Part shown: piece after piece, positions 16,735 to 64,000 of the stretch
How the letters are laid out: each line of letters opens with the position of its first letter
Position numbering within the stretch: the first letter of the stretch is position 1
Assembly: GCA_025360005.1 (NCBI GenBank)
Contig: JANYDA010000048.1
Coordinates: 1 to 64,000 of the forward strand
From: Fibrobacteria bacterium
Lineage (GTDB): Bacteria > Fibrobacterota > Fibrobacteria > UBA11236
Direction of reading: 5' to 3'
DNA: 64,000 bases
Notes under the pieces: generated by a model
Seen by the model: the letters and a program-made list of their open reading frames with translations, nothing else
Databases searched by the model: none
Told to the model about the DNA's origin: nothing
Translations under genes and position numbers: made by a program

Positions 16735-18117
16735 CTATCCCAGTAACCTGATCTTGAACTTCCGGCCTTTGATCTTGTTCTCGCTCAAGCGGGCGAAAGC
16801 CCTCTGCGCCGATTTGCTTTCCACCGAAACGTAGGCCTCGTAGTCGATCACGTCGATTTTCCCGACCGACCCGGCAGCGAGCCCCTTTTCTCCCGTCAAG
16901 GCTCCCAGGATGTCCCCGGCCCGCAGCTTGTCTTTGCGGCCCGCAGCAATCCCCAGCGTCACCTGGTCCGCCACCAAGGCTTTCAGGGAACCCTTATCGG
17001 CCCATTCCATCGTCTCGCTGGGCACTTCGATCTTAAGGAATTCGCGCGCGGCCAGGATCTTGTGCTCTTCATGCGCCGAAGCCAGCGTAATGGCATAACC
17101 CGAATTCCCCGCCCGTCCCGTGCGGCCGATGCGATGCACGTAGGTTTCCATATCACGCGGCACCTCGAAGTTGATGACCGCGCTGAGATCTTCGATATCC
17201 AATCCCCGCGCCGCCACGTCGGTGGCCACCAGCACCCGGCAACTGCGATGCCGGAAGCGCATCAGGACCTGCTCCCGATCCCGCTGCTCCATGTCCCCAT
17301 GCAGGGCGGCAACGCTGAATCCCAGGTCGAGCAAGTGCTGGAACACTTCCTTGGCCGCCACCTTGGTATTGCAGAATACGATGGCGCTGCGGGGCCGCAG
17401 GCGCGAGAGCAGGGAAGCCAGGCCGTCCAATCTGCCTTCCTTTTCGCAGAGGATGAATTTCTGATCGATACGGGAATCCGCGGGATCGGATTCGATGCGG
17501 ACGTGGACGGGGCCGCGTTGAAAACGTTCGCTCAGCAATTTGATGTCTTCCGGAAAAGTGGCCGAAAAGAGCAGAGTCTGGCGCTCCGCCGGTATTCCGG
17601 CGATGATTTCCGTGATGTCCCCCAGGAAGCCCATGTCCAGCATCCGGTCCGCCTCGTCCAAAACCAAAGTCCGGACCGACTCCAGGGAAATGGTTTCCCT
17701 TCTGAGATGGTCCTGGATGCGGCCCGGGGTCCCCACCAGCACATGGGAGCCGTTGCGGAGCGCGGTCTTTTGCAGCCCCATATCCTGGCCGCCGTAAAGC
17801 GGCACCACCTTGACGTTCCCAAGGTAACGCGCCAGCTTCCGTAACTCTTGAGATACCTGAATGCACAATTCCCGCGTGGGACAGAGCGCCAGGGCCTGGG
17901 TTCCCGCCGCCCTGGGGTCCAGCCTTTGCAACAGGGGGATAACGAAGGCCGCGGTCTTGCCGCTGCCCGTTTCCGCCTGGGCGATGATGTCCTTGCCCTT
18001 TAGCGCCGTCGGCAGGGCCGCCGCCTGGATGGGCGTCATGGCCAGGTAGCCCAGCTTTTCCAGATTGGCGAGCTGGGCGGGGGGCAGATTGAGGCGGGAG
18101 AACGGGGGGGATTGCAT
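16735..18117 (-). CDS. dbpA: ATP-dependent RNA helicase DbpA
   Basis: DbpA is a DEAD-box helicase that remodels 23S rRNA around hairpin 92 during 50S assembly. The protein is 460 aa (E. coli 457). Motifs are the Q motif (TPIQAAALP), I (AETGSGKT), Ia (PTRELCIQ), II (DEAD), III (SAT), V (ATDVAARGLD) and VI (HRIGRTGRAG). The C-terminal RNA-binding domain typical of DbpA follows (DKLRAGDILGALTGEKGLA ... GKIDVIDYEAYVSV). I use the ATG at 18117, which gives the standard N-terminus PPFSRLNLPPA; the frame stays open upstream but is not protein-like. Confidence 0.95.
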   Translation of the reverse strand: MQSPPFSRLNLPPAQLANLEKLGYLAMTPIQAAALPTALKGKDIIAQAETGSGKTAAFVIPLLQRLDPRAAGTQALALCPTRELCIQVSQELRKLARYLGNVKVVPLYGGQDMGLQKTALRNGSHVLVGTPGRIQDHLRRETISLESVRTLVLDEADRMLDMGFLGDITEIIAGIPAERQTLLFSATFPEDIKLLSERFQRGPVHVRIESDPADSRIDQKFILCEKEGRLDGLASLLSRLRPRSAIVFCNTKVAAKEVFQHLLDLGFSVAALHGDMEQRDREQVLMRFRHRSCRVLVATDVAARGLDIEDLSAVINFEVPRDMETYVHRIGRTGRAGNSGYAITLASAHEEHKILAAREFLKIEVPSETMEWADKGSLKALVADQVTLGIAAGRKDKLRAGDILGALTGEKGLAAGSVGKIDVIDYEAYVSVESKSAQRAFARLSENKIKGRKFKIRLLG

Positions 18118-18158
18118 GGGGGCAAATCTACTAAGACGGGGTACCCTCGTATTCAGCC

Positions 18159-18186
18159 TTGAGGGATGGAAAAATTTATGTACCAT
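18159..18186 (+). promoter_or_regulatory. Possible promoter for the three-gene cluster
   Basis: TTGAGG (18159-18164) and TACCAT (18181-18186) are separated by 16 bp within an AT-rich patch between the divergent dbpA start and the PLP-enzyme start. The match to a sigma-70 consensus is moderate. Confidence 0.3.
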
Positions 18187-18241
18187 ATTGATTGATCGCG
18201 CGCATGTTCGACACCCTCGGAAAATCCACAAAAGGTCGAAA

Positions 18242-19396
18242 ATGGAGCCCCGTCTAGACATCGAGAGCGTCCAAAAGGGTTCTCGCCGGGATGAAGGGCG
18301 TTTCTTTGCGCTTTCCGATTTCAAATTGGAAGACTTCTTTTTTAAGTATGAGCATTCACCGGGGTTGATCAATCTCGCCTCCAGTGACGTGCAGCCTTGG
18401 TCTTGGCGTGAGCTGGCACGGAAATGCCCCAGGCTTTCCGGATGTCTGAAGCAGATGGACTTCAGGTACCCCGATATTGCCGGAGCCCTTCTTAAGCCAA
18501 TGCAAAAAGCATTACGCCTTCCTCCTGGAAAAAAAGTCTTTCCAACCAACGGCGCCGAAGAATCCCTGTTCCTGGTTCTTGGGGCCTTACGCAACCGGTA
18601 CAAATCCGGGCCCCTGATTTCTTTTCCGGAACTAGGGTTCGGATCTTATGCGGGCATTTCCCGATATCTAGGATTCAAAGTATCGACTATCAAATGCGAT
18701 CCAACTAACGATTGGAGGATTTCTGAGGAGGCCCTTTTCAATGCTTGCGCTAAATCCAGGATAGTGGCTATTGCCAACCCCAATAATCCGACCGGGGCAA
18801 TAATCCCGAAGGAAACCTTAAGGCAGGCGGCAAAAATCCTGGCGAAAAAAGATGGCGTGTTGTTGGTCGATGAAGTTTTCGCTATGCCTGGAGAATATGA
18901 TTCTGTGGCTGCTCTCGGAGAAAATGTGGTTGTCGTAGGAAGCCTGTCCAAAGTTTACGGGCTTCCCGGGATACGGCTGGGCTGGACGTTAGCGGAACCT
19001 GGCTTGATTGCGACGATGCAAACCCTGCAGCAATATACCACTCTTTCCTTGAATTCCTTTTCCGTAGTCGCAGGAACCCATATCATGAATAATCTGAGAA
19101 CATTCACAAGACAAGAAGACGTGGGCATTAACAGACGGTACCTAATCAATTGGTGCCATACCGTGAGCGCAATCAGGTTAATCGATCCGGAAGCCGGAAC
19201 CACGGCCGTCCTGCAGATCGAATCCAAATTGTCAGAGGATCGCTTGTTTCGGAATTTCAAGAGTAAGGGCGTACTGCTGGTTCCCGGATCGAAATGCTTC
19301 GGCTTCTCTGGAAAAAAACCGTGGTTCCGCTTGGGCTATGGGGGCAATCACAGATCGCTTGCCAAAGGTCTGGAAATTCTCGGTAACATACTCTAA
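18242..19396 (+). CDS. PLP-dependent enzyme, class I/II aminotransferase fold, capreomycidine-synthase-like
   Basis: The protein is 384 aa. The PLP lysine is Lys237 in GSLSKVYGLPGIRLGW. Asn182 lies in NPNNPTG, Asp210 in LLVDEVF, and Arg245 follows, so the active site looks intact. From memory of VioD (capreomycidine synthase), several segments correspond: an early LxxF/W plus SS-V...-WRELA segment, GxEESLFLVL, the SLSKVYGLPGIR loop, YTTLSLN and VLLVPGSKCFGF. VioD-type enzymes use a beta-hydroxylated amino acid for beta-replacement or cyclisation. An Fe(II)/2OG oxygenase gene two places downstream would fit that chemistry. AAAGGT lies 7 nt before the ATG. Generic histidinol-phosphate-type transaminase activity is the alternative. 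Confidence 0.75.
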   Translation: MEPRLDIESVQKGSRRDEGRFFALSDFKLEDFFFKYEHSPGLINLASSDVQPWSWRELARKCPRLSGCLKQMDFRYPDIAGALLKPMQKALRLPPGKKVFPTNGAEESLFLVLGALRNRYKSGPLISFPELGFGSYAGISRYLGFKVSTIKCDPTNDWRISEEALFNACAKSRIVAIANPNNPTGAIIPKETLRQAAKILAKKDGVLLVDEVFAMPGEYDSVAALGENVVVVGSLSKVYGLPGIRLGWTLAEPGLIATMQTLQQYTTLSLNSFSVVAGTHIMNNLRTFTRQEDVGINRRYLINWCHTVSAIRLIDPEAGTTAVLQIESKLSEDRLFRNFKSKGVLLVPGSKCFGFSGKKPWFRLGYGGNHRSLAKGLEILGNIL

Positions 19397-62244: not shown

Positions 62245-62547
62245 ATGGAGTCGGTGGTGAATATCAGGTTTCTCCCGGGAACGGTTGCGCTCTTTTTCCT
62301 GGCCGCTTGCAAGCTCCCCGAGCAAAGACAGGCTTTTTACCCCAACGGGTTCCTTAAGGAACGTTATTGGGTTTACCGGGACAGCGGCCGTGAAGTGATG
62401 GACGGTTTGTATATCGGGTGGTTTCCCAACGGGGAACGCGAAGTGGAAATTCTCTATCAGGACGGCTCCGAGGTGGCCAAGACCTACTTCACCGATCGAG
62501 GTCATTTCATGGGCAGCGCGGATTTGGCGGCACTCCGGGATCCTTAA
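62245..62547 (+). CDS. Small lipoprotein with a YwqK-like repeat pair
   Basis: The protein is 100 aa. A signal with lipobox TVALFFLAAC (Cys about 22) is followed by short repeats FYPNGFLKERYWVY and GWFPNGEREVEILYQDG, similar in pattern to the large MORN-like lipoprotein at 22767. The start could be ATG 62245 or a GTG at 62257; GGAG (62247-62250) fits the GTG better. It seems to stand alone; the 214 bp upstream hold no convincing gene. Function unknown. Confidence 0.6.
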   Translation: MESVVNIRFLPGTVALFFLAACKLPEQRQAFYPNGFLKERYWVYRDSGREVMDGLYIGWFPNGEREVEILYQDGSEVAKTYFTDRGHFMGSADLAALRDP

Positions 62548-63045
62548 CCCCCTTTCCGGATTGCCCGCTCTGCGGCCGGTCCGTCCGTCCCGTTCCCGTT
62601 TCCCTGTTACTACGCTTTGGCGCCGGGGGATCCCCACGGAACCGTTTCCCAACCTGGGCGGTCAAAACCCGCTGGCGCTCCCAACGCGATTCCCTGTCTA
62701 CGGATCTCGGCAGAGCGGGGGTGAAGCGCAGCGAATGCAGTAAAGTTTTTTAACCGGCGGAAAATTTTCCATGCGCTTTTTGAGCTGTGATCTCCCGCAC
62801 GTCTTTGATGAGGACGCCATAGCCGAACCGACTGGTAAAATCATGGTAAATTCTCCCCGCATACCCTGTTGCATCCGAAGGGGTTTTCGCTTACTTTCAT
62901 CCGGCAACCCTGTATTTAAAGGCCCTTATCATAGGGGGTAGCCTGCGGGTTTCGGGACTCGGAGCGAAGATCCGGGGGCCGGAAACGACTTAGGCAGTTG
63001 TGTCCGTCCGGACAATGTGAACTTTAATGAAACCAGGAAAAAAAA
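62548..63045. other. Gap with a possible gene remnant before the HA-repeat gene
   Basis: These ~500 bp hold no complete gene. On the minus strand, a protein-like stretch of about 40 residues (YHDFTSRFGYGVLIKDVREI, then TAQKAHGK) runs from about 62880 to a stop near 62755, without a start codon in frame. It may be the 3' end of a lost gene. The AT-rich part at 63030-63045 contains the AGGA site and TTG start of the next gene. No clear promoter could be placed. Confidence 0.35.
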
Positions 63046-63930
63046 TTGAGTAGTAAATTTGATAATGCAAAGGGCGTTTCCCGCGTAGAGTTCGCCACCC
63101 GCTGGGATGAGCAATGGGTCCGTCAATATGGCCATCTGGTGCGCTACCGCGCCAAGAACAAATCCTGGCCTTCCACCCTGGAGGAATTCCCCAAAGGCAA
63201 CCGCCTGGGCCAATGGGTCCATCGCCAGCGCGATCTGCAGGGCCGGAAGAAGCTGTCCGGCGATCGCGTAAAGCTGCTCAACAAGCTCGGCTTCGCGTGG
63301 GAGAAGACCGACGAACGCGAATCCCATTGGGAGCAGCAGTTCCGCTACCTCAGGGACTATCGCAAAACGCATCCCGGCGAGTGGCCGTTCGCCCGCGAAG
63401 AGTTCCCCAAGGGCAATCGCCTGGGCCTTTGGGTCTGGCGCCAACGCCAGAATTACGCCCGGAAGAGTTTGGAAAAGGATCGCCAGCAGGCCCTGATCAA
63501 GCTGGGATTTCCGTTGATCCTGCCCGATAGCTGGGAAGGGCATTTCCAGACCCTGAAGGAGTATCGCGCCAAGCATCCGCAACGCTGGCCCAAGGCGCGG
63601 GAGGAGTTCCCCGCCGGCAACCGCCTGGGCCTCTGGTGCCATCTCCAACGCTGCGCCTATAAAGCGGATAAGTTAAGCCCGGAGCGCGCGGCCAAGCTGA
63701 ACCGCGCCGGTTTCCTGTGGAGCGTCAAAAACCTGGGTTGGATGCGCTATTACGAGCAGCTCAAGGAATACAAGAAGAAGAATCCCGGCAAGTGGCCGTC
63801 CCTGGAAGCCGCGGCCTTGCAAGACAAGAAGCTGATCTCCTGGTGCAGCGCCCAGCGCCATAAGAAGAAGCTGAAGAAGCTGGACAAGGAAAAAACCAAT
63901 CTGCTCAACAAGCTGGCTTTCCGTTGGTAA
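63046..63930 (+). CDS. Protein made of four helicase-associated (HA) domain repeats
   Basis: The protein is 294 aa and consists of four tandem units of about 70 residues. Each has the pattern W-x-x-x-F/Y-x-x-L/L-x-x-Y/K-W-P/E-E-F-P-x-G-N-R-L-G-x-W-x-x-x-Q-R, then L-L-N-K-L-G-F-x-W. This is the helicase-associated domain (PF03457 type), normally the C-terminal DNA-binding tail of a DEAD-type helicase. No helicase is adjacent. The start is TTG 63046 with AGGA about 8 nt upstream. The last unit is more basic and less conserved (KKLKKLDKEK). Likely a stand-alone DNA- or RNA-binding protein. Confidence 0.82.
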   Translation: MSSKFDNAKGVSRVEFATRWDEQWVRQYGHLVRYRAKNKSWPSTLEEFPKGNRLGQWVHRQRDLQGRKKLSGDRVKLLNKLGFAWEKTDERESHWEQQFRYLRDYRKTHPGEWPFAREEFPKGNRLGLWVWRQRQNYARKSLEKDRQQALIKLGFPLILPDSWEGHFQTLKEYRAKHPQRWPKAREEFPAGNRLGLWCHLQRCAYKADKLSPERAAKLNRAGFLWSVKNLGWMRYYEQLKEYKKKNPGKWPSLEAAALQDKKLISWCSAQRHKKKLKKLDKEKTNLLNKLAFRW

Positions 63931-64000
63931 AGGGCGGAAAAGCGCCGGGACGGGGCGTCCGAAGGGGCCTGGGTACTCGCCAGGTTACGTAGCCGGCGAG

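Follow-up and report, generated by a model that had tools for sequence, protein, structure and literature searches.

A complete free-standing protein of four helicase-associated domains, conserved in one family of Fibrobacteria, as a candidate nucleic-acid-binding regulator

The gene and its product

The window, i.e. the whole stretch of 64,000 nucleotides that was analysed, contains close to its right end an open reading frame (ORF) of 294 amino acids that begins with TTG and encodes four helicase-associated (HA) domains in tandem. The contig runs on to 152,554 bases, so the gene is not cut by the end of the window. The gene and its repeats are located as follows.

63046..63930, plus strand: free-standing four-HA protein of 294 amino acids (Pfam; orthologues in all ten genomes of the family)
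63103..63294, plus strand: HA repeat 1 (51.2 bits; cut-off 28.4)
63319..63510, plus strand: HA repeat 2 (42.5 bits)
63526..63714, plus strand: HA repeat 3 (51.3 bits), the best-conserved repeat between the genera
63739..63921, plus strand: HA repeat 4 (38.4 bits), divergent and without the EEFPxGNR stretch of repeats 1 to 3

In Pfam the protein belongs to the HA family PF03457, with a whole-protein score of 149.4 bits (E=3.4e-44) against the curated cut-off of 28.4 bits, which each of the four repeats also exceeds (38.4-51.3 bits). No other family, and in particular no catalytic family, was recognized by Pfam, which confirms the preliminary description of the four units as a whole TTG-started protein. 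In NCBIfam only NF033934 was matched, at 27.3 bits and thus below its cut-off of 85. With at least two HA domains and no further family, the protein is a free HA array; it is not an HA-tailed SF2 helicase, in which ResIII or DEAD and Helicase_C domains would lie in the same protein, as the HA domains stand alone and the frames upstream are closed. It is the only HA gene above the cut-off in its genome (4.98 Mb, 98% complete), where two other HA matches, with E values of 0.37 and 0.61, both fall below it.

The protein is strongly basic, with a pI of 10.3 and a charge of about +35, to which each repeat contributes +7 to +12. Repeats 1 to 3 are 44-48% identical to one another and 29-37% identical to repeat 4; the sequence EEFPxGNRLG, with small variants, is common to the first three and missing from the fourth.

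Start site and reading frame

From position 62547, where the upstream ORF ends, to the TTG codon, the three forward frames contain nine, two and six stops, and the last stop in the frame of the gene lies at 63028. A possible ribosome-binding site precedes the start:

63035..63038, plus strand: AGGA, 7 nucleotides before TTG (from the sequence)

The aligned start codon is TTG in five of the six genomes of the genus and GTG in the sixth. In two of them (G003 and G004) the frame stays open further upstream, for 55 and 63 codons; we take the aligned start as the putative real one. A run of eight A residues lies directly ahead of TTG (window 63027-63048). In the window, an ATG at 63027 does not share the frame of the gene; the matching ATG of G002 does, seven codons before TTG.

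The preliminary description had considered that the protein might be the tail of a helicase that was split off. A sequencing or assembly error that severed the gene from an upstream helicase frame has a negligible probability, given the stops in all three upstream frames and the identical four-repeat architecture in ten genomes, and the same two observations rule out a recent split.

Conservation and gene neighbourhood

HA matches were found in ten of 61 genomes (the organism's own and 60 relatives), and these ten are all the members of its family. Each contains the four HA domains in one frame, and the nine orthologues align repeat to repeat with the window protein at 56-89% identity. A comparison with the sister-genus genome G008 revealed 74% identity for repeat 3 and 51-58% for the other repeats. 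The dN/dS ratios of 15 within-genus pairs are low, at 0.067-0.165, values that are rough at synonymous distances of 0.7-1.5. The only extra HA sequence among the ten genomes is a second ORF of 101 amino acids with one HA domain in G005 (L049 9195-9500, minus strand).

An M48 peptidase gene lies upstream in nine of the ten loci; the contig of the tenth, G009, starts too near to tell. In all six genomes of the genus a TerC gene and a MORN-like ORF are also located upstream. The MORN-like ORF (window 62245-62547, plus strand, 100 amino acids) adjoins TerC and matches MORN_2 with 17.7 bits, below the cut-off of 29.6. Downstream in the window's genome a convergent ORF of 867 amino acids without a Pfam match is followed by an ORF with carboxypeptidase-regulatory-like domains. 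In the sister-genus genome G008, the HA gene is flanked on one side by a Ppx/GppA gene in divergent orientation and a polyphosphate kinase gene, and on the other by an ORF without a Pfam match together with a TatD-type gene. The GC3 of the HA gene is 0.78, within the range of its neighbours (0.67-0.81).

The upstream element

Two conserved features were identified upstream of the gene.

62834..62852, plus strand: conserved 19-bp element GGTAAAATSATGGTAAATT, candidate operator or promoter part (upstream alignment, control regions)
62890..62897, plus strand: conserved block CTTACTTT (CTTAATTT in G001), possible promoter core (six-genome upstream alignment)

The element GGTAAAATSATGGTAAATT holds the direct repeat GGTAAAAT-N3-GGTAAATT with a spacing of 11 bp, about one helical turn. 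It is present without mismatch upstream of the HA gene in all six genomes of the genus, which contain no other match with up to one mismatch. At the same stringency it is absent from the other 55 of the 61 genomes, including the four sister-genus genomes that keep the protein; the site is therefore not needed by the whole family. Allowing three mismatches, ten extra matches were obtained in the ten genomes as compared with six for the reversed pattern, a level so close to the control that no regulon is seen. The longest word shared at one mismatch by the six upstream regions of 420 bases was 20 bases for the HA gene versus 14 for TerC, 14 for M48 and 11 for the MORN-like ORF; the TerC and M48 control regions share one intergenic stretch. 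The element could also serve another factor or form part of a promoter.

A possible upstream peptide that would begin with the ATG in GGTAAAATSATGGTAAATT was rejected by eye, since in G002 this frame stops after nine codons and is not preserved. A second upstream word, GGGGTAGCCTGCGGGTTGCG, was likewise discarded as a gene-specific site, as it occurs at 2-11 places per genus genome with up to three mismatches. With three mismatches allowed, the word GGGGTARCCTGCGGGTTRCG (window 62935-62954), a near-palindrome of the form GGTAACC..GGTTACC, recurs 2-11 times in each genus genome, compared with 0-2 for controls; it is a dispersed element.

Predicted structure

AF2 predictions on five sequences yielded as the best model four groups of three helices, a weak prediction with a pLDDT of 68.1 and a pTM of 0.33, and the remaining four models scored 39-44. 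A single repeat was predicted to form three helices, with a score of 75.4. Fold searches with these weak models revealed no DNA-binding relative above noise; the best matches, within noise, were a TetR-type protein (Z 3.5, rmsd 3.0, 65 residues aligned) and a designed protein (Z 2.6). These searches say little because the HA domain 2KTA, which was found by sequence, is missing from their results. The entry 2KTA was the sole PDB match by sequence (E=6.8e-7 to repeat 3); it belongs to the same HA family as the window protein but consists of a single domain, and the record is named 'Putative helicase'.

Free HA arrays and HA helicases elsewhere

In a survey of 167 genomes of the phylum, HA matches occurred in 16 at E<=0.001, in 15 of them above the cut-off, and no HA domain was seen on a helicase. 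Further free arrays were recognized in G094 (357 amino acids, five HA domains), G166 (297 amino acids, four HA domains) and G093 (315 and 322 amino acids). They resemble the window protein in that HA domains are their sole real match, and in G166 and G093 the first repeat contains a TEFPPEN or EENPKGF stretch similar to that of the window protein, whereas the identity between single repeats does not exceed 33%. Single HA domains were present in an ORF of 123 amino acids in G077 and at the end of a 566-residue ORF stretch without Pfam helicase domains in G161. These two and the 101-residue ORF of G005 were not counted as arrays, nor was a 365-residue ORF of G070, which fell below the cut-off and by eye is not an array.

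Plasmid records matched the window protein in 190 cases and the Arthrobacter protein described below in 571. Among ten hand-picked annotated plasmid HA genes, five encode 159-567 and five encode 775-1088 amino acids. The domain scan covered four of the five short genes, all but one of 359 amino acids, and disclosed no domains other than HA in these four. The scanned products, none of which contains a motor, are free arrays annotated as 'helicase associated domain-containing protein' from Arthrobacter alpinus (285 amino acids, four HA domains), Rufibacter tibetensis (567, seven), Mycolicibacterium pallens (364, five) and Rhodococcus oxybenzonivorans (159, two). They differ from the window protein in being plasmid-borne, in belonging to other phyla and in their repeat numbers, whereas the window gene occupies a conserved place in ten genomes of one family. 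Arrays of this kind are thus already in public annotation by name, and the window protein adds one more. The notion of HA domains as regular parts of helicases has to be narrowed accordingly: HA-tailed helicases exist, but half of the ten plasmid genes are short, and the four that were scanned contain HA domains alone. Many Streptomyces plasmid HA genes (e.g. H63, H73, H81 and H83) lie within about 3 kb of the end of the record, as if near the telomeres of linear plasmids.

Among plasmid and phage sequences, the window protein is matched best by the four-HA tail of such a helicase (33-35% identity over 88%). The example encoded on the Phocaeicola massiliensis plasmid OY726003.1 (L086) comprises 753 amino acids with ResIII (PF04851), Helicase_C (PF00271) and four tandem PF03457 domains; 33% of the residues are identical over 88% of the window protein. 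It differs in that the array forms the tail of a motor protein and the repeats are shorter. A closely related four-HA helicase, with a motor 77% identical, occurs in a 'Bacteriophage sp.' record (L085 4796-7078, as compared with L086 4516-6777 in the Phocaeicola plasmid); both genes lie amid ORFs that by eye resemble sugar-nucleotide and glycosyltransferase genes.

A tree of 51 repeat units from 12 proteins was constructed, in which units with E>=0.001 were left out; these were one unit each of G093 and Rufibacter as well as spurious matches inside helicase motors. Each of repeats 1 to 4 groups with its counterparts from other genomes (support 0.89-0.99), and judged by this grouping the four-unit array existed before the two genera separated. 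Repeats 1 to 3 cluster at a low support of 0.55 with repeat 4 apart, so that growth of the array by doubling while it was already free is likely, although weakly supported. The window repeats do not pair one-to-one with repeats 1 to 4 of the Phocaeicola tail, and the best identity of any window repeat to a unit of that tail is 38%.

Could the array work in trans with a helicase?

A split-off tail might still work with a separate motor of the same cell, and the resemblance to the four-HA tail of the Phocaeicola helicase speaks for such an arrangement. The repeats, however, are not colinear with that tail, and the HA gene is not next to a helicase. The statement that no helicase is nearby holds for the adjoining genes but not for the window as a whole: a profile search revealed a DEAD-box helicase of the DbpA type at 16735-18603 (minus strand), about 44 kb from the HA gene. 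The genome contains 19 Helicase_C and 18 ResIII matches, and the DbpA-type protein is the only one on the contig of the HA gene. None of the 19 Helicase_C matches overlaps an HA domain. The motor of the Phocaeicola helicase has no relative in any of the ten family genomes at E<=0.001; over 16 genomes it matched in G077 only. In a direct BLAST comparison with six of the 19 Helicase_C proteins, the best match, to the generic DEAD-box protein, had an E value of 2e-4 over 106 amino acids, as compared with 77% identity for the control, the second Bacteroidales-like helicase. A separate motor piece of the Bacteroidales type was therefore found neither next door nor elsewhere in the genome. The closed frames, the conservation in ten of ten genomes and the lack of a match to a Bacteroidales-type motor do not fit a tail that was split off a helicase recently or through an assembly error, and action in trans with a motor is distinctly unlikely.

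DNA, RNA or a mobile element

The independence of the protein, which had been suggested as one of two possibilities, fits its closed frame and its conservation throughout the family; a putative binding to nucleic acid is suggested by its charge and the kind of domain it contains. In the reading we favor, to which we assign a middling confidence, the gene encodes a complete four-HA nucleic-acid-binding protein that would regulate or organize DNA and perhaps control its own synthesis. This reading is drawn from the combination of a free, basic protein of four units, devoid of a catalytic family and present family-wide, with an upstream site that is private to one genus.

The best surviving alternative is an RNA-binding protein, such as a translation or ribosome-assembly factor, whose HA units would lie on RNA. 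Basic, repeated small helical units would suit RNA equally, and helicases, in which the HA domain is known to occur, may have RNA as their substrate. However, the protein contains no RNA-specific domain, Rfam identified no known RNA leader in 62500-64000 at E<=1, and no ribosomal or RNA-processing gene was present among the neighbors examined, the DbpA helicase being the nearest. DNA is the more likely ligand, and we consider the RNA alternative rather unlikely.

A plasmid- or phage-derived DNA-binding protein with a role in mobile-element or defence biology is very improbable. Many HA proteins are plasmid-borne, as the matching plasmid records indicate, but the window gene occupies a conserved place on the chromosomal contig, with one four-HA gene per family genome and a host-like GC3; neither PHROGs nor PADLOC gave a match, and 23 pattern-matching stretches in viral contigs included no confirmed relative.

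A model for the free-standing HA protein

In the proposed model the four three-helix HA units would line up on double-stranded DNA and each contribute a share of the affinity. The protein would serve as a regulator or as a local organizer of DNA, not as an enzyme, and it may bind to GGTAAAAT-N3-GGTAAATT ahead of its own gene and thereby set its own level. This autoregulation through the direct repeat is the weakest step of the model, and we regard it as doubtful. Still more speculative, and on balance unlikely, is the generalization that free HA arrays form a separate class of sequence-specific DNA-binding regulators in which the HA units read a direct repeat of one helical turn.

HA domains are present in numerous bacterial helicases and free proteins. 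Among the titles and abstract openings seen in the open literature, no study of an HA-domain ligand or of the function of free arrays was found; the one paper in which PF03457 was encountered has a title that concerns a plant gene family. Should this generalization hold, the HA gene and GGTAAAAT-N3-GGTAAATT would constitute the first protein-operator pair of the free-HA-array class. With a small single-copy array that lacks a motor and has a candidate site beside it, the old conjecture of nucleic-acid binding by HA domains could be tested directly.
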